DNA from: Clostridia bacterium
GTDB taxonomy: Bacteria; Bacillota; Clostridia; Christensenellales; Borkfalkiaceae
Direction: 5' to 3'
NCBI GenBank assembly: GCA_017886575.1
Contig: JAGHJP010000017.1
Span: 22,921 to 86,920 of the forward strand
DNA: 64,000 bases
Position numbers and translations under genes: made by a program. Shown piece after piece: positions 3,223 through 61,270 of the stretch. Within the stretch, counting starts at the first letter, position 1. Every line of letters starts with the position of its first letter. The notes under the pieces were generated by a model. That model did not search any database, was not told where the DNA came from, and saw nothing but the letters and a program-made list of their open reading frames with translations.

Positions 3223-3880
3223 CGGACAATGCCTCCTCCAAATATCTCTTTTCCGCCTCTATCCCCGCCCGCACCCTTTCCTGCAAAGGGCGGGACAGAA
3301 GGGCTTCCTTCTTTTTTATCTCCGCGCGCAGGAAGGACAGAAAATCTTCCCCCCGCTTGCGCAGGTTTTCCCTGCCGAAAACGAGCTCCGCTTCCGAATA
3401 GGGCGGCGTGCCGCCCGTGCGCGAACCCGCGATGACGTCGTAAAATTTGCCGTCCCGGAAGGTAAAATCGCGCTCGATGCGCGCCCCGTAAGACAGGAGC
3501 AATTGCCGCAGCGCGGGCGCGTCCCGCATGGGCTGCAAAACGAATTTTTTGGGAACGAACCCGCCTTCGCCCGTGAGGATATGTGCGATTTCCATGCCGC
3601 CCATGCCCGCGATGAGCACGAGATCGGTTTCGGGATCGACGCCGCGGAGCCCGTCCGTACAGAGGGGCATGCACACGCCGCGGGCGATGTATTTTTGCAA
3701 CAATGCGCGCGCCTTTGCAAGGCAATCCGCGCTGATGTCCGTCACCGTCGCCCGCTCGCAAAGCCCGTTTTGCAGCATGTACTCCGTACAATAGCCATGA
3801 TCGCAGCCGACGTCGGCGAAAGTCTTAACGGGGGAAAGCAGGGAACAGAGCACGCCGATCCGCGCCGAACGCGTGGGCAT
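3209..3880 (-). CDS. trmK: tRNA (adenine(22)-N(1))-methyltransferase TrmK family
   Basis: FADVGCDHGYCTEYML, LIAGMGGMEIAHIL; overlaps Nif3 gene. Confidence 0.9.
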   Translation of the reverse strand: MPTRSARIGVLCSLLSPVKTFADVGCDHGYCTEYMLQNGLCERATVTDISADCLAKARALLQKYIARGVCMPLCTDGLRGVDPETDLVLIAGMGGMEIAHILTGEGGFVPKKFVLQPMRDAPALRQLLLSYGARIERDFTFRDGKFYDVIAGSRTGGTPPYSEAELVFGRENLRKRGEDFLSFLRAEIKKKEALLSRPLQERVRAGIEAEKRYLEEALSGEID

Positions 3881-3883
3881 GGG

Positions 3884-4963
3884 TCACTCCAAAAAGTCTT
3901 TCAGCGTCTTGCTGCGGCTGGGGTGACGGAGCTTTCTGAGCGCCTTCGCCTCGATCTGGCGAATGCGTTCGCGCGTGACGTTGAACTCCTTGCCCACCTC
4001 TTCGAGGGTGCGGGGCCTGCCGTCGTCGATGCCGTAGCGCAGGCGCAGCACCTTCTCCTCGCGGGGGGTGAGGGTGTCGAGCACGTGCAAAAGCTGTTCT
4101 TTGAGCATGGTGGCGGCGACGCTGTCGCTGGGCGTCACCGACTTGTCGTCCTCGACAAAGTCGCCGAGGTGGCTGTCCTCCTCTTCGCCGATGGGCGATT
4201 CGAGGGAGACGGGATCCTGCGCGATGCGCTGTATCTCCACCACGCGCTCCACGGTAACGCCCATCTCCTGCGCGATCTCCTCGGGCGTGGGTTCCCTGCC
4301 CGTCTGTTGGAGAAGCATGCGGGACACGCGGGTGAGTTTGTTGATGGTTTCGACCATGTGCACGGGGATGCGGATGGTGCGCGCCTGGTCGGCGATGGCG
4401 CGGGTGATGGACTGGCGGATCCACCAGGTGGCGTACGTCGAGAATTTATATCCCTTCTGATAATCGAATTTTTCCACCGCCTTCATGAGACCCAGATTGC
4501 CCTCCTGGATGAGGTCCAAAAAGAGCATGCCCCGCCCGACGTACCGCTTGGCGATGGACACGACCAGACGGAGATTTGCCTCAGAGAGGTGACGTTTTGC
4601 CTCCTCGTCCCCCTCCTGCATGCGGCGGGCGAGTTCGATCTCGTCGTCCGCGGACAAGAGGGGCACCCGCCCAATGTCCTTCAGATACATCTTGACGGGA
4701 TCGTCCAGCCCCACGTCCATCAGCACGCGGTCGAAGAGTTCCTTGTCCCGCTCCGCCTCGTCGATGATCTGGATGCCCGCTTCGGGCAGCGCCTTATAGA
4801 CGGTGTCCATCTGATTGGACGTGATATCGTACTTTTCCAGGATATCGAAGAGCGCGTTGGAGTTGATGCTTCCCTTCATCTTGTACGCGTTGATGATACC
4901 GTTGACGATGTCCGTCAGTTTCTGATCGCTGATGCTCATTTTTTTGTTTTTTCCTCCGTTCAA
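3884..4963 (-). CDS. rpoD: RNA polymerase primary sigma factor SigA/RpoD
   Basis: Region 2 [41 protein letters not shown] and region 4 [46 protein letters not shown]. Confidence 0.98.
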
Positions 4964-4996: not shown

Positions 4997-6781
4997 TCAG
5001 TAATTTTTCAGTTCCCGCGCGAGCGCCGTCAGTTCCTCTGCGAGCGCATGGCGGGCGGAAAGGTCCGTTTCGGCGCCGATCTTCGCCGTGATCTCGTCCA
5101 TCCTTGTCTGCACCCGCCGGCGCGCGACCGTTTTGACGCAGTCGGCAAAGTATTTTTCCGCGCCGCCGCCGAAGAGCCGTTCCTCGGTGTTCAGGTCGAG
5201 GATCGCGTTGAATTCGGGCGTGTCCTCGCCGAAGAGTTCGAAGAGGTCGGACACCCGTATCTCCTGCCCCGTTTCGCGGCAGAAATTGATATAGCGCACC
5301 AGCGCGCGGTGCACGTCGTCCGGAAAATCCTCTTCGCGCAGGGCGGCGTCCTCGGCATACGGCAGGCGGAAGAGCACGGCGCCGATGAGGAACCGGCACG
5401 CCTTTTTGACCTTGTCGCCCTTGTCCTGCACGGCGCGCGCGGGCGGGACGGGCGCACTCTTTTGCGAAGGGGTGTATTCCTCGAGATCGCGCGCGAGGGA
5501 CTGATAGGTGAAGCCCGTCTTGTCCCGCACGGTCTTCAGAAGGTCCTCCCGCTCGGCGGCGGACGGCGCCTCGCGGATGACGGGCATCGCCGCCTGCGCA
5601 TAGGCGCGCTTGCCCTCCGTCTGCGAAAGGTCGTACCTGCGTTCCAGCGAATGCAGTTTATAGTCGACGAGGGGCAGAGCATTGTCCAGGCACGCCCGGT
5701 AAGCGGCGGCGCCGCGCTTTCTGACCACGTCGTCGGGATCCTCCCCCTCGGGCATGAGCACGACTTTGACGTTGAGGTTTTCGTCTTTTAATATCTCCAG
5801 CCCTCTTAAATCGGCGTTCTGCCCCGCGAAGTCGCCGTCGTAACTGATGAGCACGTTTTCGGCGTATCGCTTGAGCATGCGCGCCTGTTCCTGCGTGAGC
5901 GAGGTACCCATGGACGCGACGACGTTGCAAAATCCCGCCTGATAGAGGGAGATGGTATCCATGTACCCCTCGACCATGATGACGTAGGGCACGGCGTTTT
6001 TCTGCTTGTATTTTTTCAGGAGATTGACGTTGTAGAGCGTCTTTCTCTTGTTAAAGAGCATGGTTTCCTTGGTATTCTTGTACTTGGCTTCCCGCTCGGT
6101 CTTTTTACCGAGGATGCGCCCGCCGAAGCCGATGACCTCGTCGAAAGAATTGATGATGGGAATGATGAGCCTGCCCGCCTGCGCGTCGAAAAGTTTGCCG
6201 CGCGCGGAGACCGAACAGGCGCCGCTCTCTTCAATCTCCTCCCGCGAAAAACCGCTGTCGAGGAGAAGTTCGGGCAGCGAATCGTAATCGAGCGAGGCAC
6301 CCAGCCCGAATTTTTTGACCGTGCTCGGCAAAAGCTCGCGCTGGCGGATGTACTCCATGTGCGCGCCCGCCTCGCCGCCGTACAGGTTTTGCAGATAGAA
6401 CCGCGCGGACGTGAGCATGATCTTCAACAGCCTGTCCTTCTTCTTTTTCAGTTCCGCCGTGCGCTCGCTGTCGAAGTTCATCTCGGGCATGGGCATCTTC
6501 GCCCGCGCCGCGAGGTATTTGACCGCGTCGGGAAAGGGCAGGGATTCCATTTCCATGACCAAACTGACCACGTCGCCCGAAACGCCGCAGCCGAAGCAGT
6601 GATAGTACTGCTCCGCCGCCTGAATGGTGAAGGAGGGCGTCTTTTCGTGGTGGAAGGGACAGCACGCCCAATAGTTGTACCCGCGCTTGTCCAACGTCAT
6701 GTACTGCGAAGCGACCTCCACGAGGTCGTTGCGCGCTTTGAGCTCCCGCATGAATTCGGGAGAAAAACCATTCTTTGCCAA
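4997..6781 (-). CDS. dnaG: DNA primase
   Basis: CPFHHEKTPSF zinc finger, VEGYMDTISL toprim. Confidence 0.97.
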   Translation of the reverse strand: MAKNGFSPEFMRELKARNDLVEVASQYMTLDKRGYNYWACCPFHHEKTPSFTIQAAEQYYHCFGCGVSGDVVSLVMEMESLPFPDAVKYLAARAKMPMPEMNFDSERTAELKKKKDRLLKIMLTSARFYLQNLYGGEAGAHMEYIRQRELLPSTVKKFGLGASLDYDSLPELLLDSGFSREEIEESGACSVSARGKLFDAQAGRLIIPIINSFDEVIGFGGRILGKKTEREAKYKNTKETMLFNKRKTLYNVNLLKKYKQKNAVPYVIMVEGYMDTISLYQAGFCNVVASMGTSLTQEQARMLKRYAENVLISYDGDFAGQNADLRGLEILKDENLNVKVVLMPEGEDPDDVVRKRGAAAYRACLDNALPLVDYKLHSLERRYDLSQTEGKRAYAQAAMPVIREAPSAAEREDLLKTVRDKTGFTYQSLARDLEEYTPSQKSAPVPPARAVQDKGDKVKKACRFLIGAVLFRLPYAEDAALREEDFPDDVHRALVRYINFCRETGQEIRVSDLFELFGEDTPEFNAILDLNTEERLFGGGAEKYFADCVKTVARRRVQTRMDEITAKIGAETDLSARHALAEELTALARELKNY

Positions 6782-6782
6782 G

Positions 6783-7793
6783 TCAGTCCCTCCCGTTCAT
6801 GGAAAAATTTTTGGGGACGAACAGGTCCTCGAACACGCCGATGGCGTAGCGGTCGGTCATGGAAGAGATATAATCGCACACGGCGCGCCCCGCACCCTCT
6901 CTTTCGGCGACGCCGCGGTACAGCGGGGGCATTTTTTCCGTGTTTTTGACGAAATAATCGTACATGGCGGTCAGCATGCGCTCCGCCCTGTCCTGCATGA
7001 CCTTGTTGGCGCGGACGTAGACGTTTTCAAACATGAATGCCCTGAGCTCCGCCGACGCACGCCCCTTTTCTTCGGACATGGTCAGCGTGTTTTTGCCCTC
7101 GGAGGTTTTGACGATGTCCGTGATGGCGGTGTTGATGCGCTCGCTGGTATCCCTGCCGAGCACGGCGATGGGGCCCGCGGGCAGGTCCTCTTCGCGCAGA
7201 AAACCGCCGCGAATGGCGTCCTCGATGTCGTGGTTGATGTAGGCGATGCGGTCGGCGAGGGAGACCGCCACCCCCTCCAGCGTCTGCGGCTTGCCCGCGG
7301 ACGTATGGTTCAAAATGCCGTCCCGCACCTCGTAGGTGAGATTGAGCCCCCTGCCGTCCTTTTCCAGCACGTCCACGACGCGCAGGGACTGCTCGTTGTG
7401 GTGAAATCCCGCGGGGCAGAGGGCGTTCAGAACGCGTTCTCCGACGTGTCCGCAGGGGGTATGCCCGAGATCGTGCCCCAAAGCGATGGCCTCGGCGAGA
7501 TCCTCGTTGAGGGAGAGTGCGCGGGCAATGGAACGGGCGATCTGCGATACGTCGAAGGTGTGCGTGAGGCGGGTGATGTAGTGATCGCCGTCGGGGGAGA
7601 AAAAGACCTGCGTCTTGTTTTTCAAGCGGCGGAAGGACTTGGAATAGATGATCCTGTCGCGGTCGCGCTGAAAATCGGTGCGCATGGAACAGGGCGTCTC
7701 CTCCCGCCGCCTGCCCTTGGTCGAAACCGACCTGCAGGCATAGGGCGAAAGAAACGCCTCCTCTATTTTATACGTCCGTTCCTTGGGCTGCAT
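6783..7793 (-). CDS. dGTPase-like HD-domain phosphohydrolase
   Basis: RDRIIYSKSFRRLKNKTQVF, LTHTFDVSQIARSIAR, AIALGHDLGHTPCGH. Confidence 0.93.
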   Translation of the reverse strand: MQPKERTYKIEEAFLSPYACRSVSTKGRRREETPCSMRTDFQRDRDRIIYSKSFRRLKNKTQVFFSPDGDHYITRLTHTFDVSQIARSIARALSLNEDLAEAIALGHDLGHTPCGHVGERVLNALCPAGFHHNEQSLRVVDVLEKDGRGLNLTYEVRDGILNHTSAGKPQTLEGVAVSLADRIAYINHDIEDAIRGGFLREEDLPAGPIAVLGRDTSERINTAITDIVKTSEGKNTLTMSEEKGRASAELRAFMFENVYVRANKVMQDRAERMLTAMYDYFVKNTEKMPPLYRGVAEREGAGRAVCDYISSMTDRYAIGVFEDLFVPKNFSMNGRD

Positions 7794-7880
7794 GCTTTCC
7801 TCCCGCGTTTTCCGCCTTTTTGTATTTTATATATTCGACGGAACTTTCCGAATTCCTTTATTTTCGGAAAAAAATTTTTT

Positions 7881-8576
7881 TCAAAGCCCGAACCCGCCGT
7901 CCACGCCGAGCGTCTGCCCGGTGATATATTCGTTTTCGGCGAGCGAAAGAATGGCGGCGGCGACCTCTTCGGGCGCGCCCTGCCGCCCCGCGGGGATATC
8001 GGCGCAGAGCGCCGCCTGCTCCTCTTTCGTAAAGCGGTCGTTCATGCGCGTGCCGATGACCCCCGGCGCGACGCAGTTGACCCTGACGCCCGCGTAGCCG
8101 ACCTCCTTGGCGAGGGCTTTGGTGAACCCGATGAGGGCGGCCTTGGAGGCCGAATAGGCGACCTCGCAGCTGCCGCCGACCACCCCCCAGACGGAGGAAA
8201 CGTTGACGATGCACCCCCTGCCCCTTTTCAACATGGCGGGCAGGGCGTATTTCGCGCAGAGGAATGCCCCCGCGGTGTTGACGGCGAACACGCGGTCCCA
8301 CTCGGCAAGCGAGGTATCCTGGATCTGCCGGACGAGGGAGATCCCCGCGTTGTTGACGAGCACGTCGACCCCGCCGATCTCCCCGAAGAGGGCGCGCACC
8401 TGTTCCTCGTCGGACACGTCCGCCCGGACAACGCGGAATCCCTCTTCCCGCGCGCGCGCCGCGCTCTCCTCGTCGGCGGAATAACAGAGCGCGACGGCAT
8501 ACCCCTTGCGGGCGAACAGCCGCGCCGTCGCCAGCCCGATGCCGCGCACCCCGCCCGTGATGAGCGCCTGCTGCAT
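7881..8576 (-). CDS. SDR-family oxidoreductase (FabG-like)
   Basis: ITGGVRGIGLATARLF, VNNAGIS, YSASKAALIGFTKALAKE. Confidence 0.9.
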   Translation of the reverse strand: MQQALITGGVRGIGLATARLFARKGYAVALCYSADEESAARAREEGFRVVRADVSDEEQVRALFGEIGGVDVLVNNAGISLVRQIQDTSLAEWDRVFAVNTAGAFLCAKYALPAMLKRGRGCIVNVSSVWGVVGGSCEVAYSASKAALIGFTKALAKEVGYAGVRVNCVAPGVIGTRMNDRFTKEEQAALCADIPAGRQGAPEEVAAAILSLAENEYITGQTLGVDGGFGL

Positions 8577-12938: not shown

Positions 12939-14068
12939 TGGGGCAGTTCCTCGTATCTTTTCATGACTTCGCGCATGTTGTCCCCGCCCAGCCGTTCGGA
13001 GACGACCTGCGCCAGCACGGTGGCGACCACGCTTTCGAGAATGATCTCGCAGGCGCAGACGGAAGCGACGTCGCTGCGCTCCGCCGCGGCGGTCTGTTTT
13101 TCGTGCGTGACGTAATCGACGGTGTCCAGCCCGCTCATCAGGGTGGGGATGGGCTTCATCGCCGCGCGCAGGACGATCTCCTCACCGTTGGACATGCCCC
13201 CCTCGATGCCGCCCGCGTTGTTGGTCTTGCGGACGAATTTGCCATCCTCGAAATAGATGGCGTCGTGCACCTTGCTGCCGGGGCGCAGCCCCACGCCGAA
13301 GCCCATGCCGACTTCCGCGCCCTTGACCGCCTGCACGCTCAGCATCGCGCCGACCAGCCTGCCGTCCAGCTTTTCGCCGTACGTCATGCAACTGCCGAAG
13401 CCGCTCTTCAATCCCTTCACGCGGATCTCCAGAATGCCGCCCGCGGTGTCACCCGCGGCCTTCAGCTCGTCGATCCTGCGCATCGCCGCCGCCTGCTTTT
13501 CGTCGTCGGGCATGAAGAGCGGACGGCTCTTGACAGATGCCAGCTCTTCGAAGGTATATTCCTTTTCGTCGGTGATGCCGCACACCGTGCGCACATACCC
13601 GCCGATCTGCACGCCGAGTTTGGCGAGGAACTGACGGCAGACGGAACCCGCCGCCACGCGCACCGCCGTTTCGCGCGCCGAAGCGCGCTCCAGAATGTTC
13701 CTGGCGTCCGTCTGATCGAATTTCTTGACCCCCGTGAGGTCGGCGTGCCCCGGGCGCACCCGCGTCAGGCGCTTTTTGGTCACGTCGCACCCCTCGGGCG
13801 CCATGTAGGGACGCCAATTTTCGTAATCGGCGTTCCGCACCCAAAAGGCGAGCGGGCTGCCGAGCGTGAGGCGGTTGCGCACCCCCGACAGGATCTCCAT
13901 GCGGTCGGTCTCTATCTTTTGGCGGAACCCCCTGCCGTAGCCGCTCTGCCGCAGGGCGAGGTACCCGTTCACCTCGTCGATGTCGATCTCCAAATTGGAG
14001 GGCAGCCCCTCTAAAATGCCGATGAGCGCCTTTCCGTGCGACTCTCCCGCCGATGTCAGTCTGATCAT
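12935..14068 (-). CDS. aroC: chorismate synthase
   Basis: Start trimmed to MIRLTSAGESHGKALIGILEG; RVRPGHADLTG, GGIEGGMSNGE. Confidence 0.97.
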   Translation of the reverse strand: MIRLTSAGESHGKALIGILEGLPSNLEIDIDEVNGYLALRQSGYGRGFRQKIETDRMEILSGVRNRLTLGSPLAFWVRNADYENWRPYMAPEGCDVTKKRLTRVRPGHADLTGVKKFDQTDARNILERASARETAVRVAAGSVCRQFLAKLGVQIGGYVRTVCGITDEKEYTFEELASVKSRPLFMPDDEKQAAAMRRIDELKAAGDTAGGILEIRVKGLKSGFGSCMTYGEKLDGRLVGAMLSVQAVKGAEVGMGFGVGLRPGSKVHDAIYFEDGKFVRKTNNAGGIEGGMSNGEEIVLRAAMKPIPTLMSGLDTVDYVTHEKQTAAAERSDVASVCACEIILESVVATVLAQVVSERLGGDNMREVMKRYEELPQ

Positions 14069-44386: not shown

Positions 44387-44690
44387 AAATAATCATCAAA
44401 CCGTTGAGGCAGAGGAGTAGTTCGGGCATACGACCTTCAGAGAGCTTTTGGCCGGTGAAAAAAAGCGATCGCATCCGAACGAATGGACTGCATGAGGGCA
44501 TCTTCGAGCTTGCATGAACTGCAAAGGTAGCGGATGACGCGGCTCCCGGCGTTAAAGGGAAGGGATATAATTTTTATCGATATAAAAACGTATCCCATAA
44601 AGAGGCGGCGTTCCTTTGCGCCGTGAATTCGGGTGGCAACACGGTATATTCGTCCCGGGCGGATATACCGTGCTTTTTTCTTTTTTCCCT
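44387..44690 (+). promoter_or_regulatory. T-box leader, predicted tRNA-Trp responsive
   Basis: Stem I GCAG-AGGAGUA-GUUCGG / CCGAAC-GAAUGGA-CUGC with specifier UGG at 44484-44486; T-box AAUUCGGGUGGCAACACGG; terminator CACGGTATAT...ATATACCGTGCTTTTTT. Confidence 0.93.
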
Positions 44691-44739: not shown

Positions 44740-45711
44740 ATGAAAAAGATCTTTGCGCTTCTGGCGGCTCTCCTGCTTGCCTTCTGCACCGTCGGCATGA
44801 CTGCCTGCGGCAGCGGCAAAATTCAGATAGCGGTGCTGCAATACGCCGAGCACGGCTCGCTGGACAACTGCTACCGGGGCGTGCAGGAAGGGCTTGCGGC
44901 GCGCGGCTATGACGAGAGCAACGTGCAGTACACCTTCTACAACGCCAAGAGCCGCGACGCCGACAACACGACGTACGCGCAGACCCTCATCAACAGCATG
45001 CCCGCCGTCGCCGTGGGCATTGCGACCCCCTCCGCCTACGCCCTGGCGAACGCGGCGCGCGGGGAAGTGCCCGTGGTGTTCACCGCCGTGTCCGACCCCA
45101 CCGCCGAGGGCGCAAACTTTCAGAACTTCCGTAACGTGACGGGCTCCTCGGACAAACTGCCCGTGGAAAACCAGATCGACCTCATCAAGGCCTTCCTGAA
45201 CAAGGGAGAGGAGCCCGTGAAGATCGGCATCGTGTACACGCTGACCGAGGCGAACTCCGTGTCCAACATCGCCGAATTTGAGGCGCTGGAGGAAGAAAAG
45301 AACGTGGAGATCGTGACCCAAGGCGTCAACCGCGACGTGGACATTACCGCCGCCGTGGACGCGCTGATCGCCGAAGGGGTGGACTGCCTGAACAACCTGA
45401 CGGACAACACCGTGGTGCAGAACCTTTCCGTCCTGCTCGACAAAGCGGAGAGCGCGTCCATACCCGTGTTCGGCAGCGAGATCGAACAGGTAGAGAAAGG
45501 CTGCCTTGCCAGCTGTTCGCTGGACTACGTCGAGCTCGGGAGAAAGACGGGCGACATGATCGCCGACATTCTGGAAGGCAAGAGCGCGGACGGCATCCCC
45601 TACCTCTACCTGACCGACGGCTATACCGTGGACTACAATTCGGACGTTTTGAGCGCGCTGGAGCTGACCCTGCCCGCCGCTTACGCGGACGCCAACGACG
45701 TGAAAGCGTAA
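44740..45711 (+). CDS. TrpX-like ABC transporter substrate-binding lipoprotein
   Basis: Lipobox VGMTAC; IQIAVLQYAEHGSLDNCYRGVQEGL, VVFTAVSDPTAEG, YTLTEANSVSNI. Confidence 0.88.
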   Translation: MKKIFALLAALLLAFCTVGMTACGSGKIQIAVLQYAEHGSLDNCYRGVQEGLAARGYDESNVQYTFYNAKSRDADNTTYAQTLINSMPAVAVGIATPSAYALANAARGEVPVVFTAVSDPTAEGANFQNFRNVTGSSDKLPVENQIDLIKAFLNKGEEPVKIGIVYTLTEANSVSNIAEFEALEEEKNVEIVTQGVNRDVDITAAVDALIAEGVDCLNNLTDNTVVQNLSVLLDKAESASIPVFGSEIEQVEKGCLASCSLDYVELGRKTGDMIADILEGKSADGIPYLYLTDGYTVDYNSDVLSALELTLPAAYADANDVKA

Positions 45712-48613: not shown

Positions 48614-48936
48614 GCGGAGACAAGGCAAAGCCTTGTCTCCCCTGTTACCCTACGGGCGAACCAGGAACGGGCGTTCCGCCGCCATGGGTGTCGAGAGGGA
48701 CTTAGTCCCTTCGCGAGGTCAAGGGGCAGAGCCCCTTGCGGGGAAGGGGTAGAACCCCTTAATTACCAAACCCTGTAAGCAAGGCTTTGCCTTGCGCCTT
48801 TATCGCCCTTACGGGCGTTATGCGGAGCATTGCTCCGCTTTATAAAGGGTTCTTTCGCAAGGGGCGCCGCCCCTTGCATCCCCGCCAAAGGAACAATATC
48901 CCTTTGGAATCCCTTGTTTCGCTACCCGCGGAGCGG
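48614..48936. repeat. short-hairpin repeat array A (smc-ftsY gap)
   Basis: About 8-9 consecutive short inverted repeats, most with 3-4 nt loops, e.g. CAAGGGGCagaGCCCCTTG, AAGGGGTagaACCCCTT, GCAAGGCtttGCCTTGC, GCGGAGCattGCTCCGC, CAAGGGGCgccGCCCCTTG. Confidence 0.9.
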
Positions 48937-48937
48937 G

Positions 48938-51900
48938 TCACTGCACGGTGTCGCCGCCCAGGCGGGATTCGACTTCGGAGAGTTTGACCGAGACGATCTT
49001 GGACACGCCCTTCTCTTCCATGGTGACGCCGAAGAGGGAGTCCGCCTGGTTCATGGTCGGCTTTCTGTGCGTGATGACGATGAACTGCGTTTCTTTGGAG
49101 AACTTTTTCAGATACCGCGCGAAACGGTCGACGTTGGCGTCGTCGAGCGCGGCTTCGATCTCGTCCAGGATACAGAAGGGCATGGGGTTGCTCTTCAGAA
49201 TGGCGAACAAAATGGCGATGGCGGTGAGCGCCTGTTCCCCGCCCGAGAGCAGGGAGATCTTGGTCAGCTTTTTGCCCGGAGGGCAGGCGTTGATCTCCAC
49301 GCCCGCGTCCAGCGGATCCTCGCAGTCGGTATAATCGAGCTGCAATTCCGCCTTGCCGCCGCCGAAGAGCTCCTTGAAGATGTACATGAAGTTTTCGTTG
49401 ATGGTATTGAAGCCCGCGTCGAACCGCTCGCGCATGTCCGCCTTGATCTCTTCGAGCATCTGCCGCGCGTCCTCGATTGCCTTTTCCACGTCGTCGCGCT
49501 GGACGGTCATCTCGTCGTAACGGGTCTTTAACGCCTCATAGTCCTCGAGCGCGTTGGCGTTGACGGGACCGAGCGCCGTGATCTTGCGCTTTAAGGCCGA
49601 TATTTCGTTCGCCGACGATGCAATATCGTATGCGGGGTCGCGCAGGGGCAGGCAGTCCTCGTAGGAGAGGGCGTACGCCTCTTCGATGCGCTGGCGCAGG
49701 TTTTCGAGGTTGGTCTCGATGCGCCCCACTTCCACTTCGCACTTGCCGCGGCGGGCGGTGGCCTCGTTGATCTTCTCCTGCACGCCGCTCTGCGCCGTTT
49801 CCAATTCGATCTGGCGGAGATTGATCTTCTGCTTTTCCGCGCCCGCGCGCTCTATCTCGGCGCGCAGTCTGTCCACGGTCTCCTGTTCGGCTTTGGTGAG
49901 CGCCTGCCGCTCGGCTTCGCGCTCCCAGCGGGCGATCTCCTTTTCGTATTCCGCCATGTCCGCCCTTTGCCGTTCGATGGCGGCATACAGGTCGGCGCGC
50001 TCGCCTTTCAACCGGACGGCGGTCTGCCCGTCGCTCTCGATGCCGCTTGCCACGGAGGCGGCTTCGACCTGCAGGGCATTGTATTGCTCCTGCAAGCCCT
50101 GCCGTTCGGCGCGGCGGTTTTCGCTCTCGCGGCGCTTCTTGTCCCGCTCCTCGTCCGCCTCCACGCGGATCTTGGCGAGCACCTTCTCGCTCTCGGAGCT
50201 TGCCTGCGCCTCGTCGGAGAGGGTGGTTTCCTTCTGTTTCAGTTCGGAAAGAACGCCGTGGTAGACGGTGATGTTCTGTTCGACTTCGCCCACGAGCTGC
50301 TGCAGGGAAGCTTCCTGCTGTTTGACGGTGGCGAGATCGGTCGCCGCCGCCTGAAAGCGCGCGCGCAGTTCTTCGAGTTTGCCCTGTGCCGCGGCGCGGG
50401 AAGCGGCGCTTGCCTCGATCGCGACGCGCAGGCGGGAAAGTTCCTTTTTGCGGGACTGTATCTCCTCCTCGCACTGCTTGATGAGTCGTTCGTTCTGCAA
50501 GAGGTTGCCCGCGTCCTTCTTCCGCGAACCGCCCGTCATGGCGCCGCTGGTGGCGATGATGTCCCCTTCCAGCGTGACGATGCGGAAGGCGTGCGCGTAT
50601 TTGCGCGCGATGCGCACCGCGCTGTCGTTGTTGTCGCAGACCAGCGTGTTGCCGAGCAGGTTTTTGATGACGGGGGCGTAATATTCGTCATATTTGACGA
50701 TGCGGTCGGCAAGCCCCAGCGCGCCCGGCTCGTTCAGCGCCCGCTCCACGTCGCGGCTGTCGTAGCGGGGCCGCATGGAGTCGACGGGCAAAAAGGTGAC
50801 CACGCCGATGTTGTTGCGCTTTAAGAAGGCGATGAGGTCCTTGGCGTGCTCGCTGGTGGCGGTGACGATGTTCTGCATGGCACCGCCGAAGAGCGTTTCG
50901 ATGGCGAGTTCGTATTTGCTTTCGCAGCTGACGATATCGGCGATCATGCCGCGGATGCGCTTGTTGACCTCGGGATCGGTCTTGGCGGCCGACAACAGGC
51001 GGCGCACGGAATCTTTATAGCCCTCGAAACGGTTTTTGAGCCCGACGTACAGATCGAGAGAATTTTCCACGCTCTCGATGCGGGCGTTGCAGGCATAGAT
51101 ATCGGCGTTCAGTTTGTCATATTTTTCCTGCTCCGCGCGGATGACGGCGTTCTGCTTTTCGAGGACTTCGTCCGCCGAGTCGGCGAGCGCCTTCAACTTT
51201 TCGATCTTGCCGGCGCAGATCTTGAGTTCTCCGCGCAGCCCCTCCCGCCGCTTTTCTTCCTTTTCGATGGCGGCGCGCACTTCCTCCATGCGCTCGGCGA
51301 CGGCGGCTTTCTTTGCCGAAAGGCTGCCCATGTTCTCTTTGAGCTGGGACAGGTTTTCGAGCGAAGAGAGCTCGCGCACGCGGTCCTGCATGACGTCCTT
51401 TTCGTAGGAGGCGATCTCCTCGTCGAGCGCCGCTATTTTGACCGCGATCTCCTTGCTTTCCCGCCCGATCTCGTCGGCTCGTTTGCGCTTTTCGGCAACG
51501 GCTTTATCGCATTCTTCCAGGGCATGCCCTATCTCTTCGATGCGTTTCTCGCAGGAAGCAATGTCCTCTTTTGCTCCTTGAAGTTTTTCGCGGAAAGCGT
51601 TCGCCTTTTCCTTGTAGAGGCGGGCGTTGCCGCTCTTTTCGGTGTTGCCGACGGTGTAGCGAAGCAGTTTTTCGTTGAGTTCGGACAGTTGTTTGTCCGC
51701 CGCGTCAAGTTCGGCGCGGTGCCGCTCGCGTTCGTCCAGAATTTCTTCGATCTCGCCGTTGAACCGCGCGATCTCGCCGCTGAGCCGCTCCATCTCGCGG
51801 GTGTAGCGCCCCTTTTCGGTCTCGGCGTTCTCGCGGCGGAATATGTAAGCATTGACCTCGTGGTATTTGAGGTCGGCGGCGTATTCGTTGTATTTCTGCG

Positions 51901-57406: not shown

Positions 57407-58747
57407 ATGACCGAAAAGACGCAAATCGATTTTATCTGGAAAAAAATAAGCGAGAAGGCGCAGAAACTCATCCCGCAGATGACCTACTCGGCATACGTGG
57501 AACCCATCGTGCCCGTGGACATCGCCGGGCGCAAGATCGTCCTGCGCGTCGTTTCGGAGATGGGCGCGGACATCCTCATGAAAAAGTACGTCGACCAGCT
57601 CAAAGAGGCGGTCGTACAGGCAGGCGCGGGCCTGACCGGGTTCATCTTCGTCGTGGACGGCAGCGACGTGTACACCATGGAAAACGCCGCCGCCGAGGAG
57701 GACGACTTCGAACCCCTGCCCATCGACAAGCGGTTCACCTTCGAGTCCTTCGTACCCGGGCCCTCCAATAAATTCGTGTACGCGGCGGCGAAGGCGGTGG
57801 CGGAAAACCCGGGCGCCTCCTTCAACCCCCTCTTCATCTATGGCAGTACGGGCCTCGGCAAGACCCACCTGATGCAGGCGATCGCCAACGACATCCGCGA
57901 AAAAAAGCCCTCGATGAAGGTACTGTATACCACCTGCGAAAAGTTCCTGAACGAAGTCATCGACAACATGCTGACCAAGAACGGCGGGCGGGACAAGGAC
58001 GCCCTCTTCCGCGCGCACTACCGCAACGCCGACGTGCTTCTGGTGGACGACATTCAGTTCATTTCCAAAAAACTCGCCGTGCAGGAGGCGTTTTTCCACA
58101 CCTTCAACGAACTGTTCGCGCAGAACAAGCAGATCATCATCTCCTCCGACCGTCCCCCCAAGGAGATCGCCGCCCTCGAAGACAGGCTGCGCACCCGCTT
58201 CGAAGGGGGACTGACCGCGGACATACAACCGCCCGACCTGGAGACCAAGATCGCCATCTTAAAGCGCAAAGCGCTCGAAAAGAAGTGCGTGCTGCCCGAG
58301 GACGTCCTGGAATTTCTCGCCAAGGATTCGGGCACGGACGTGCGCACCCTCGAAGGCAGGCTGACCAAACTGCTGTTTGCCGCCAAACTGCACGAAGAAC
58401 CCATCTCCCTGAAACTCGCCAAGCTGGCGCTGAGCGAATCGGTGCCCGAAGAGCAGGAGACAGTCACGCCCGAAGCGGTCATCAAGAGCGTGTGTTCGTA
58501 CTATAAAATTTCCAAGACCGAACTTTTGGGCAAGAACAAAAAGCAGGAGATCGTGCGCGCACGGCAGATATGCGCCTATCTCATGTGCGAGATGCTCTCC
58601 CTGCCCCTCGTCAACGTCGGCAAACTCCTTGCCCGCGACCATGCGACCATCATCCACTCCCGCGACAAGATCGCCGATTTCATCAAGATCAACGACCGCG
58701 TGGCAAAGGACGTGGACGACATCAAGAACATCGTCTTAAAGCAGTAA
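57407..58747 (+). CDS. dnaA: chromosomal replication initiator DnaA
   Basis: NPLFIYGSTGLGKTHLMQAIAN, VLLVDDIQFI, SSDRPPKEI, C-terminal DNA-binding LLARDHATIIHSRDKI. Confidence 0.98.
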   Translation: MTEKTQIDFIWKKISEKAQKLIPQMTYSAYVEPIVPVDIAGRKIVLRVVSEMGADILMKKYVDQLKEAVVQAGAGLTGFIFVVDGSDVYTMENAAAEEDDFEPLPIDKRFTFESFVPGPSNKFVYAAAKAVAENPGASFNPLFIYGSTGLGKTHLMQAIANDIREKKPSMKVLYTTCEKFLNEVIDNMLTKNGGRDKDALFRAHYRNADVLLVDDIQFISKKLAVQEAFFHTFNELFAQNKQIIISSDRPPKEIAALEDRLRTRFEGGLTADIQPPDLETKIAILKRKALEKKCVLPEDVLEFLAKDSGTDVRTLEGRLTKLLFAAKLHEEPISLKLAKLALSESVPEEQETVTPEAVIKSVCSYYKISKTELLGKNKKQEIVRARQICAYLMCEMLSLPLVNVGKLLARDHATIIHSRDKIADFIKINDRVAKDVDDIKNIVLKQ

Positions 58748-58849
58748 ACGGGTCTTTCGGCCGGTGCATGCCCGCATATAACGATATTTTGAAGGACGGC
58801 ACTCTTCTTAATCGGCGAACTTAAAAGCAAGCCCACGGCTCGCGCAACT

Positions 58850-59325
58850 GAGGTTCCCAAAGGAGCGTTGCTCCTTTGGTGGGGTCAAGGGGTGAAACCC
58901 CTTGCTGTATCGTGAACTTATCAAGCAAGGCGCCGCCTTGCGCTGAATATCGCCGAAAGGCGATTTAAACGCGGGCATGCCCGCGTTGGATGCGGCGCAT
59001 GCGCCGTTTTAGAAAGGCTGTTTTTTTGCGGGAACACCGTTCCCGCACCCTGCCAAAGGGACACCGTCCCTTTGGAAACCCGCGTTGCGCAAGGCAAAGC
59101 CTTACTTATAGGGTTCCATTTTTTCAAGGGGCTTCGCCCCTTATAAACCCCGCGAAGGGCGTAACGCTCTCCCGACACCCATATTGCGCAAGGCGAAGCC
59201 TTGCTTGATATGTTCGGGATATCGGGGGCGCTGCCCCCGACCCCGCAAAAGGCTCCGCCCTTTGAACCCGCCAAAGGGACACCGTCCCTTTGGAAACCCA
59301 TATTGCGCAAGGCAGAGCCTTGCTT
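58850..59325. repeat. short-hairpin repeat array B (dnaA-mnmG gap)
   Basis: More than a dozen short inverted repeats, e.g. CCAAAGGAGCgttGCTCCTTTGG, two CCAAAGGGACaccGTCCCTTTGG, GCAAGGCgccGCCTTGC, CGGGGGCgctGCCCCCG. Confidence 0.92.
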
Positions 59326-59389
59326 TGTGTTCAAAATAAAAAAATCAGGGGCGGCGACGCCTTTTTTTCAAAAAAAAGGAACGACAGCA

Positions 59390-61270
59390 ATGGACGAAAA
59401 GGAGAAAGACAACTACATCATCGGGACGTACGACGCCGCCGTCATCGGGACGGGACATGCCGGGTGCGAAGCCGCCCTTGCCCTGGCGAGGACGGGCATA
59501 AAGACGGTCATGCTCACCCTCAACCTCGATTCCATCGGGTTCATGCCCTGCAATCCCTCCATCGGCGTGACGGCGAAGGGACACCTGGTGCGCGAGATAG
59601 ACGCGCTGGGCGGCGAGATGGGGCTGAACGCCGACAAGACCGCCCTGCAGATACGCATGCTGAACGTCGGTAAGGGCGCGGCAGTGCAGTCCCTGCGCGC
59701 ACAATCGGACAAGAACGCCTATCACCGCGAAATGAAGCGCACCCTGGAAAGCTGCCCGAACCTGCGCATTTTACAGGCGGAAGTCGCCGATATCCTGACG
59801 GAAAACGGCGCGGTGACAGGCGTAAAGACGGCATTCGGCGGCGTTATCCGCTGCCGCGCGGTCATCGTGTGCACGGGCGTCTATCTCAACTCCGAGACCA
59901 TCACGGGCGATTTCGTGCAGAGATCGGGACCGAACGGATTTCAGCGCGCCTCGTACCTCACCGACTGCCTGCAGCGGCTAGGGTTCAAGATCATGCGGTT
60001 CAAGACGGGCACGCCCGCGCGCGTGGACGGCAGGACGGTGCATTTTGAAAAGTGCGAAGTGCAGCGGGGCGACGACGACATATACCCCTTCTCCTTCCTC
60101 ACCGAAAAACTGCCCGAAAACAGGGCGGTCTGTTACCTCACCTATACCAACGAACGCACCCATGCCATCATTTTAGACAATCTGGACCGTTCCCCCCTCT
60201 ACAACGGCACCATCCTCTCCACGGGGCCGCGGTACTGTCCGTCCATCGAGACCAAGGTGGTGCGCTTCCGCGACAAAGCGCGCCATCAGCTCTTTTTGGA
60301 ACCGGAGGGCGCGAACACAAACGAGATATACGTGCAGGGAATGTCCTCATCCATGCCCCATGACGTGCAGGAGGCGATGTACCACACCGTGGCGGGGCTC
60401 GAGGACTGCCTGTTCACCCGTTACGCCTATGCCATCGAATACGACTGCATCGACGCCCTGGACATTCTGCCCACCCTCGAATATAAAAAGGTGAAGGGGC
60501 TGTATACAGCGGGACAGATCAACGGCACGAGCGGCTATGAAGAGGCGGCGGCGCAGGGGCTGATGGCGGGACTGAACGCCTCGCTCGCCCTGCGCGGCAA
60601 ACCGCCCCTGGTGCTCCGCCGCGACCAGGCATACATCGGCGTGCTCATCGACGACCTCGTGACCAAGGGCACGGACGAGCCCTACCGCATGATGACCTCC
60701 CGCGCCGAACACCGCATTTTCCTGCGGCAGGACAACGCCGATTTCCGCCTGACCGAGATCGGCCACGCCTGCGGGCTGGTGACGGAGGAGCGTTACGCCG
60801 TCTACCAAAGGCGGAAGGCGCAGTACGAAGAGGCGCTGCGCGCCCTGGACGAGCGCGTTTCCCCGAAAGCCGCCGGCGCCTTCGTGGAAAAGTACGGCTT
60901 CGGCAAACTGACGAGCGGCATTTCCTATGCGGACATGCTCCGCCGCGGCATTCCGCTCAAAGACGTGCGCGCGGCGTTCGGCATTCTGCAGGGATATCCC
61001 GCCGATATTCTGCAGACGGCGGAGATCGCCGTGCGGTACGAAGGGTACCTGAAACAGGGCTACGAACAGATCGAACGGGCAAAGAAACTGGAGGACAAGC
61101 GGCTGCCCCCCGATATGGACTACCTCTCCCTGGAAGGACTGCGCCTGGAAGCGCGGGAAAAATTGGACAAGGTGCGCCCGCTCAACCTGGGACAGGCGGG
61201 GCGCATTTCGGGCGTCAGCCCCGCAGACGTCGCCGTGCTGATGGTGTGGCTGTCGTCCCATCGGAAATAG
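59390..61270 (+). CDS. mnmG: tRNA uridine-5-carboxymethylaminomethyl modification enzyme MnmG/GidA
   Basis: Start trimmed to MDEKEKDNYIIGTYDAAVIGTGHAGCEAALALAR (AAAAGGAA RBS); MPCNPSIGVTAKGHLVREIDALGG, TGTPARVDGRT. Confidence 0.97.
   Translation: MDEKEKDNYIIGTYDAAVIGTGHAGCEAALALARTGIKTVMLTLNLDSIGFMPCNPSIGVTAKGHLVREIDALGGEMGLNADKTALQIRMLNVGKGAAVQSLRAQSDKNAYHREMKRTLESCPNLRILQAEVADILTENGAVTGVKTAFGGVIRCRAVIVCTGVYLNSETITGDFVQRSGPNGFQRASYLTDCLQRLGFKIMRFKTGTPARVDGRTVHFEKCEVQRGDDDIYPFSFLTEKLPENRAVCYLTYTNERTHAIILDNLDRSPLYNGTILSTGPRYCPSIETKVVRFRDKARHQLFLEPEGANTNEIYVQGMSSSMPHDVQEAMYHTVAGLEDCLFTRYAYAIEYDCIDALDILPTLEYKKVKGLYTAGQINGTSGYEEAAAQGLMAGLNASLALRGKPPLVLRRDQAYIGVLIDDLVTKGTDEPYRMMTSRAEHRIFLRQDNADFRLTEIGHACGLVTEERYAVYQRRKAQYEEALRALDERVSPKAAGAFVEKYGFGKLTSGISYADMLRRGIPLKDVRAAFGILQGYPADILQTAEIAVRYEGYLKQGYEQIERAKKLEDKRLPPDMDYLSLEGLRLEAREKLDKVRPLNLGQAGRISGVSPADVAVLMVWLSSHRK

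Follow-up and report, generated by a model that had tools for sequence, protein, structure and literature searches.

Bacterial genomes commonly contain short palindromic repeats, the spread of which is understood mainly for RAYT/REP. REP/BIME elements are short, perfect or near-perfect palindromes with 3- to 4-nt loops that lie between genes and occur as inverted pairs, mosaics, and tandem copies (PMC8266576, PMC3733652). The BOX, RUP, and SPRITE elements of pneumococcus are modular, hairpin-forming small repeats that occur in clusters (PMC3049150). Here, we analyzed a hairpin array between dnaA and mnmG in a 64,000-nt stretch of DNA (the window) from an uncultured Clostridia bacterium, whose genome assembly, G000, amounts to 1.53 Mb in 61 contigs and is 92% complete. 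We consider it probable that a mosaic, mobile-type extragenic palindromic element, served by a putative mobiliser, gave rise to the array, in which copies and fragments of it are clustered.

As an earlier, sequence-only reading of this DNA had described, the gap is tiled with hairpins. Twelve of them are perfect, with stems of 6 to 10 bp (7 to 10 bp in 11) and 3-nt loops in ten, and together with a few imperfect, weaker ones the whole set spans 58827-59323. Compared with dinucleotide shuffles, the folding of the array gave a z of -11.4 as DNA and -11.3 as RNA, and none of 100 shuffles folded as well. The larger module that had been reported twice in the gap is indeed duplicated (59049-59107 and 59267-59325, 90% identical). 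Module M was defined as GGGATT-Ha (a 10-bp hairpin)-CGGGGT-Hb (a 7- to 8-bp hairpin), and a covariance model of M, R1, was used for searches. Modules usually occur in inverted pairs, GGGATT...AATCCC, making up a unit M...M'. The features of the window are as follows.

44395-44660, plus strand: T-box leader (RF00230, 104.5 bits), lying ahead of the gene at 44740
48616-48938, no strand: related array A; it separates two minus-strand genes, of which the second is smc; R1 match at 48858-48913, minus
57407-58747, plus strand: dnaA, one flanking gene (TIGR00362, 455.7 bits)
58748-59389: dnaA-mnmG gap
58827-58843, no strand: degenerate end hairpin GCAAGCC-cac-GGCTCGC, one mismatch
58851-59081, plus strand: first unit, with degenerate left end GAGGTTC, M ... 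M', and AAACCC end, from its sequence and its order compared with other arrays
58857-58879, no strand: perfect hairpin Ha, CCAAAGGAGC-gtt-GCTCCTTTGG
58886-58904, no strand: perfect hairpin Hb, CAAGGGGT-gaa-ACCCCTTG
58925-58941, no strand: perfect middle hairpin GCAAGGC-gcc-GCCTTGC
58949-58964, no strand: perfect middle hairpin ATCGCC-gaaa-GGCGAT
58968-58987, no strand: perfect middle hairpin AACGCGGG-catg-CCCGCGTT
59028-59081, minus strand: module M' (Hb' TGCGGGAAC, Ha' CCAAAGGGAC, AAACCC); R1 match C37:81948-82001, minus, E 1e-13
59027-59047: perfect hairpin
59053-59075: perfect hairpin within the first M'
59126-59142, no strand: perfect hairpin AAGGGGC-ttc-GCCCCTT
59188-59204, no strand: perfect hairpin GCAAGGC-gaa-GCCTTGC
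59222-59240, no strand: perfect hairpin TCGGGGGC-gct-GCCCCCGA
59246-59299, minus strand: second M', the second copy of the larger module (Ha' at 59271-59293, perfect); direct repeat; R1 match C37:82166-82219, minus, E 1e-13
59307-59323, no strand: perfect end hairpin GCAAGGC-aga-GCCTTGC
59390-61270, plus strand: mnmG, the other flanking gene (TIGR00136, 798.2 bits); start approximate

An intergenic position beside dnaA would suit intrinsic terminators or a replication origin, but we regard this as extremely unlikely. A hairpin followed by a T run was found at 2 sites versus 1.7 expected in shuffles, no DnaA box was found in the gap even when one mismatch was allowed, and no clear GC-skew turn was seen. 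Moreover, the same arrays lie at dozens of other sites, and this position-independence contradicts such a role.

The hairpin families described in the sequence-only reading recur throughout G000. The palindrome CCAAAGG...CCTTTGG occurs 31 times, versus zero for the reversed control pattern. In 325 kb of G000 stretches, 229 perfect stems of at least 7 bp with 3-nt loops were counted versus about 25 in one shuffled copy, so that such hairpins are commoner than in shuffled sequence. With genes called by our own codon-usage script, these stems were denser between genes (4.4 per kb) than inside them (0.28 per kb), densities that are not genome averages since the stretches were picked around palindrome matches. 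The recurring array order is end hairpin, GGGATT, Ha, CGGGGT, Hb, middle hairpins, Hb', ACCCCG, Ha', AATCCC, and end hairpin. Unit lengths are discrete, about 127 to 133 bp (most units in the sister genome G004) or about 203 to 241 bp (most in G000 and in a second sister, G001); the minimal unit is about 130 bp, longer units of about 205 to 212 bp carry extra middle hairpins, and some units sit in tandem. In G000, arrays and genes had the same orientation in 10 cases and opposite orientations in 3, a split that decides nothing. The over-represented 8-mers of the G000 stretches are headed by ATGCCCGC/GCGGGCAT (182 copies, 1.3 times the expectation), which often follows stop codons, as at 58764-58774 of the window and just past the stop at 7504 of locus L011, and is retained at such places in sister species.

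Comparison of five genomes of the genus revealed that only the window's species has an array between dnaA and mnmG; in the four others the gap measures 194, 152, 50, and 15 bp and holds none. Further sites differ likewise: L011 is filled at 7504-7929 (425 bp) versus 60 bp in G004, L019 at 13715-14061 (346 bp) versus 33 bp in G004, and L188 lacks an array at 3844-3956 (112 bp) versus 884 bp with an array in G001. These filled and empty sites, together with the array-free orthologous gaps, argue for a mobile-type element. About as many array sites are common to two or three species, which indicates that movement is not frantic, and at some shared sites the array lengths are unequal. Clean empty sites against sisters were not obtained for G000, its divergence from them being too large. 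In the covariance-model search, G000, G001, and G004 each yielded at least 56 R1 copies, 56 being the number of copies scored per genome; G002 and G003 yielded none. R1 was present in 11 of 101 relatives, and in one of 300 genomes sampled from the phylum, namely the window's own. This patchiness within the genus (three of five members) and beyond again points to a mobile-type element. Another family of the order supplied an AT-rich genome, G037, with its own ordered hairpin arrays (loci L032-L034), in which TTGGAGAC, CCAAAGGGA, and CTTCTTTTCT...AGAAAAGAAG surround a shared GGGATT-Ha core.

In orthologous arrays of sister species, module order is kept though whole stems differ. The compensatory stem changes that had been claimed within families were upheld on 38 aligned modules of G000 and G001, of whose cells 99.1% are paired, with changes on both sides in 12 of 18 pairs. 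Compensatory cells numbered 150 versus 42.6 (standard deviation, 7.5) in shuffles, and the covariation score was 0.570 versus 0.214 in shuffles and 0.17 to 0.18 after a one-column slide. Since these modules had been chosen with a pairing criterion, the count was repeated on copies chosen by linkers alone, where at least 7 of 10 pairs were intact in 22 of 25 copies in G000 and 16 of 18 in G001. The covariation, the discrete unit lengths, and the tandem units all support the mobile-type reading.

Strong folding and covariation, and the fact that most arrays lie between same-direction genes, would also be expected of a host-functional RNA, with arrays transcribed as untranslated regions and hairpins kept for mRNA stability, processing, or regulation. 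We judge this distinctly unlikely. Arrays are missing at orthologous sites and from two members of the genus, and their share across same-direction, convergent, and divergent gaps resembles that of other gaps. G.U pairs account for only 7 of 673 aligned cells in the 38 modules, and single mismatches on the coding strand, in an enlarged sample with duplicates removed, comprised 20 G.U versus 13 A.C, which is not significant. Neither the window arrays nor the modules of 15 array loci gave an Rfam match that exceeded its threshold. RNA-level upkeep was at one time suggested by a G.U/A.C asymmetry of 14 versus 2, which fell to the above ratio in the larger, deduplicated sample. Thus, the mismatch data do not support selection on an RNA, yet they leave room for it. 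Stable GNA triloops in DNA were rejected as an explanation too, at 15, 9, and 4% versus 12% expected. The sequence-only reading had seen hairpin maintenance in the pairing pattern. That pairing outlives sequence turnover is borne out, but upkeep by the host does not follow, because no other genome of the genus has the array in its orthologous gap, array sites differ among sister species, and G.U shows no significant excess over A.C. For RNA discovery this is a warning: strong stem covariation between genes may reflect mobile palindromes instead of a functional RNA.

Similar clusters had been suspected in other Clostridia; we found them there and in further phyla. The phrase GGGATT-CCAAAGG...CCTTTGG-C matched at least 118 stretches of species genomes, and among the matches listed the titles include Ruminococcus, Oscillospiraceae, Desulfovibrio, Solidesulfovibrio, Methylobacterium, Acidiphilium, Lentisphaerae, and Synergistaceae. 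These names are record titles, many of them of metagenome bins, with Methylobacterium, Solidesulfovibrio, and R. flavefaciens strains among the isolates. Downstream of the phrase, outside the searched part, a second hairpin was present in 46 of 81 matches versus 151 of 6,320 random positions. A further 23 matches carry an CCGCCGGAGGC-like sequence downstream, including 17 of 21 of the Desulfovibrio type, the rest being some Alphaproteobacteria and Clostridia and one Synergistaceae. R1 copies numbered 19 to 149 in 17 of 18 phrase-carrying genomes, among them Desulfobacterota, Methylobacterium, Lentisphaerae, Synergistaceae, and Oscillospiraceae; the single R1-negative genome, a Bacteroidia, is probably a chance match to the phrase. 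Such copy numbers in other phyla and the excess of second hairpins favor a mobile-type element as well. Inverted modules in a Lentisphaerae bin (G107, L243-L252) surround a long, varied hairpin with a stem of nearly 30 bp between AATCCC and GGGATT, and a Methylobacterium locus (L060, 4205-4260, minus strand) holds a sul1 riboswitch (RF03058, 77.7 bits) that has no relation to the arrays. Six viral contigs matched the phrase. One contig filed as viral (IMG/VR 3300035498_002011, L167) shows, near 5201-5230, a module followed by a GCAAGGC hairpin in the style of the window's own genus, and is either phage-borne or host DNA. No phage or plasmid record matched the dnaA-mnmG array.

A concrete footprint of insertion, and one from which the enzyme might be traced, comes from an Oscillospiraceae bin (Tb.RUG.209; G113), in which near-identical copies define a 233-bp element with two inward-facing modules. 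A strong terminator-like hairpin adjoins 15 of 21 distinct left ends versus 40 of 780 in the control, and the same hairpin is repeated on the other side of the element at five of the six sites with a hairpin and a readable right flank. The duplication spans the whole hairpin, about 26 to 33 bp. As different sites duplicate different hairpins, it represents target duplication on insertion rather than a fixed part of the element, and this hairpin-targeted insertion further supports the mobile-type reading. The G113 element differs from units in the window's genus in its outer ends and in its inward-facing modules. As candidate terminal inverted repeats, the genus units show GGGATT...AATCCC with partly matching outer bases, and their ends are approximate. 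Target duplication and exact ends were not demonstrated in G000, whose units lack matching flanks; direct repeats flank units in G001 and G004 and may be tandem duplications. By analogy, insertion of the G113 type may operate in the genus also. That modules generally abut terminator hairpins was rejected, since the counts elsewhere were near control (1 of 22 loci in Desulfobacterota, 0 of 7 in Alphaproteobacteria, and 4 of 45 in Clostridia), and the association is kept for G113 only.

The G113 sites also bear on passive palindromes, whereby template switching in replication makes or keeps perfect hairpins and slippage grows the arrays with no mobilising enzyme. Compensatory changes with few intermediates, tandem units, and unequal lengths at shared sites all suit this process. 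However, it leaves unexplained the dispersal to many sites and the fact that the linkers GGGATT and CGGGGT are fixed across several phyla, and different terminator hairpins, each duplicated around one 233-bp element, speak against it. Hence we hold it to be unlikely.

The searches yielded no mobilising enzyme. In a REP/BIME system, a RAYT (Y1 transposase) would be the mover, and the extragenic palindromes look alike in both, as do the inverted pairs, the mosaics, and the tandem units. However, GTAG tags are depleted at hairpin feet (4 versus about 31 expected at 580 hairpins), and no Y1 transposase (PF01797) was found in G001 or in 13 other module-rich genomes. These two findings indicate that the family is not a RAYT/REP system despite the resemblance, and we consider that explanation very unlikely. 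CGTC tags at the same hairpins numbered 12 versus about 31 expected. The sole Y1 trace in G000 consists of apparently broken fragments of an IS200-type transposase (C50:16690-16898; L005 and L006). Reverse transcriptase was rejected as a mobiliser, none being present in G000, G001, or G004. A search for Y2 transposases gave no matches, its controls being likewise silent, and no parent or autonomous transposon sharing the ends was seen in the fetched stretches.

Taken together, the data mainly show spread rather than local hairpin maintenance. They establish copies throughout the genome, arrays gained or lost at orthologous sites, units in tandem, strongly covarying stems, and one module at high copy number in several phyla. 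The pattern is better explained by a spreading palindromic element than by an RNA conserved at the locus. Against the mobile-type reading, we counted the missing enzyme, the lack of target duplication or exact ends in G000, the shared sites, and the differing ends of the G113 element. In the proposed mechanism, the building block would be M (GGGATT-Ha-CGGGGT-Hb) and the unit two inverted modules, and a hairpin-reading enzyme would move or copy the units in the form of folded single-stranded DNA or cruciforms. Pairing would survive either because the enzyme accepts only paired copies or because one arm is restored when the other is copied; arrays would grow by nested insertion and tandem duplication, and if the expression of dnaA or mnmG were affected at all, this would be incidental. 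More tentatively, a cross-phylum, multi-hairpin family could be envisaged whose putative hairpin-reading enzyme duplicates the whole target hairpin, its arrays growing by insertion into hairpins; this is possible, though we would not yet favor it. With pairing kept through turnover, a patchy distribution in the genus, and an occurrence in distant phyla, often without a RAYT, the family offers a case in which a second way for palindromes to spread can be tested.

Searches of the open-access literature turned up no account of these sequences, which does not in itself prove novelty. As far as we found, three things are new: a two-hairpin module whose linkers are fixed, the recurrence of this module in distant phyla, and, in one genome, insertion with whole-hairpin duplication. 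The consensus of the Clostridiales-2 RNA (RF02937) likewise reads GGG-hairpin-CG, and its weak full-length match over the second M' (15.8 bits versus a gathering score of 58.6) is at chance level and serves as a lead only. Like REP/BIME/REPIN with RAYT, the family consists of palindromes of about 20 to 50 nt, intergenic and in many copies, and shares the inverted pairs, mosaics, and tandem copies; unlike them, it lacks the GTAG tag, has many carriers without a RAYT, and is built of two-hairpin modules with GGGATT and CGGGGT linkers in several phyla. BOX, RUP, and SPRITE are similarly modular, hairpin-forming, and clustered, but their sequences are unrelated, they are reported mainly from streptococci, and BOX and RUP have known TIRs and TSDs. 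MITEs resemble the family in being shorter than 500 bp (units of about 127 to 241 bp here, 233 bp in G113), non-coding, inverted, high in copy number, and patchy, and target duplication is seen likewise in G113. They differ in that the family forms GC-rich hairpin arrays with no parent transposon found and with uncertain ends in the genus, and in that the G113 duplication covers a whole hairpin. On the more tentative reading, this whole-hairpin duplication is somewhat akin to CRISPR integration, which duplicates a repeat.
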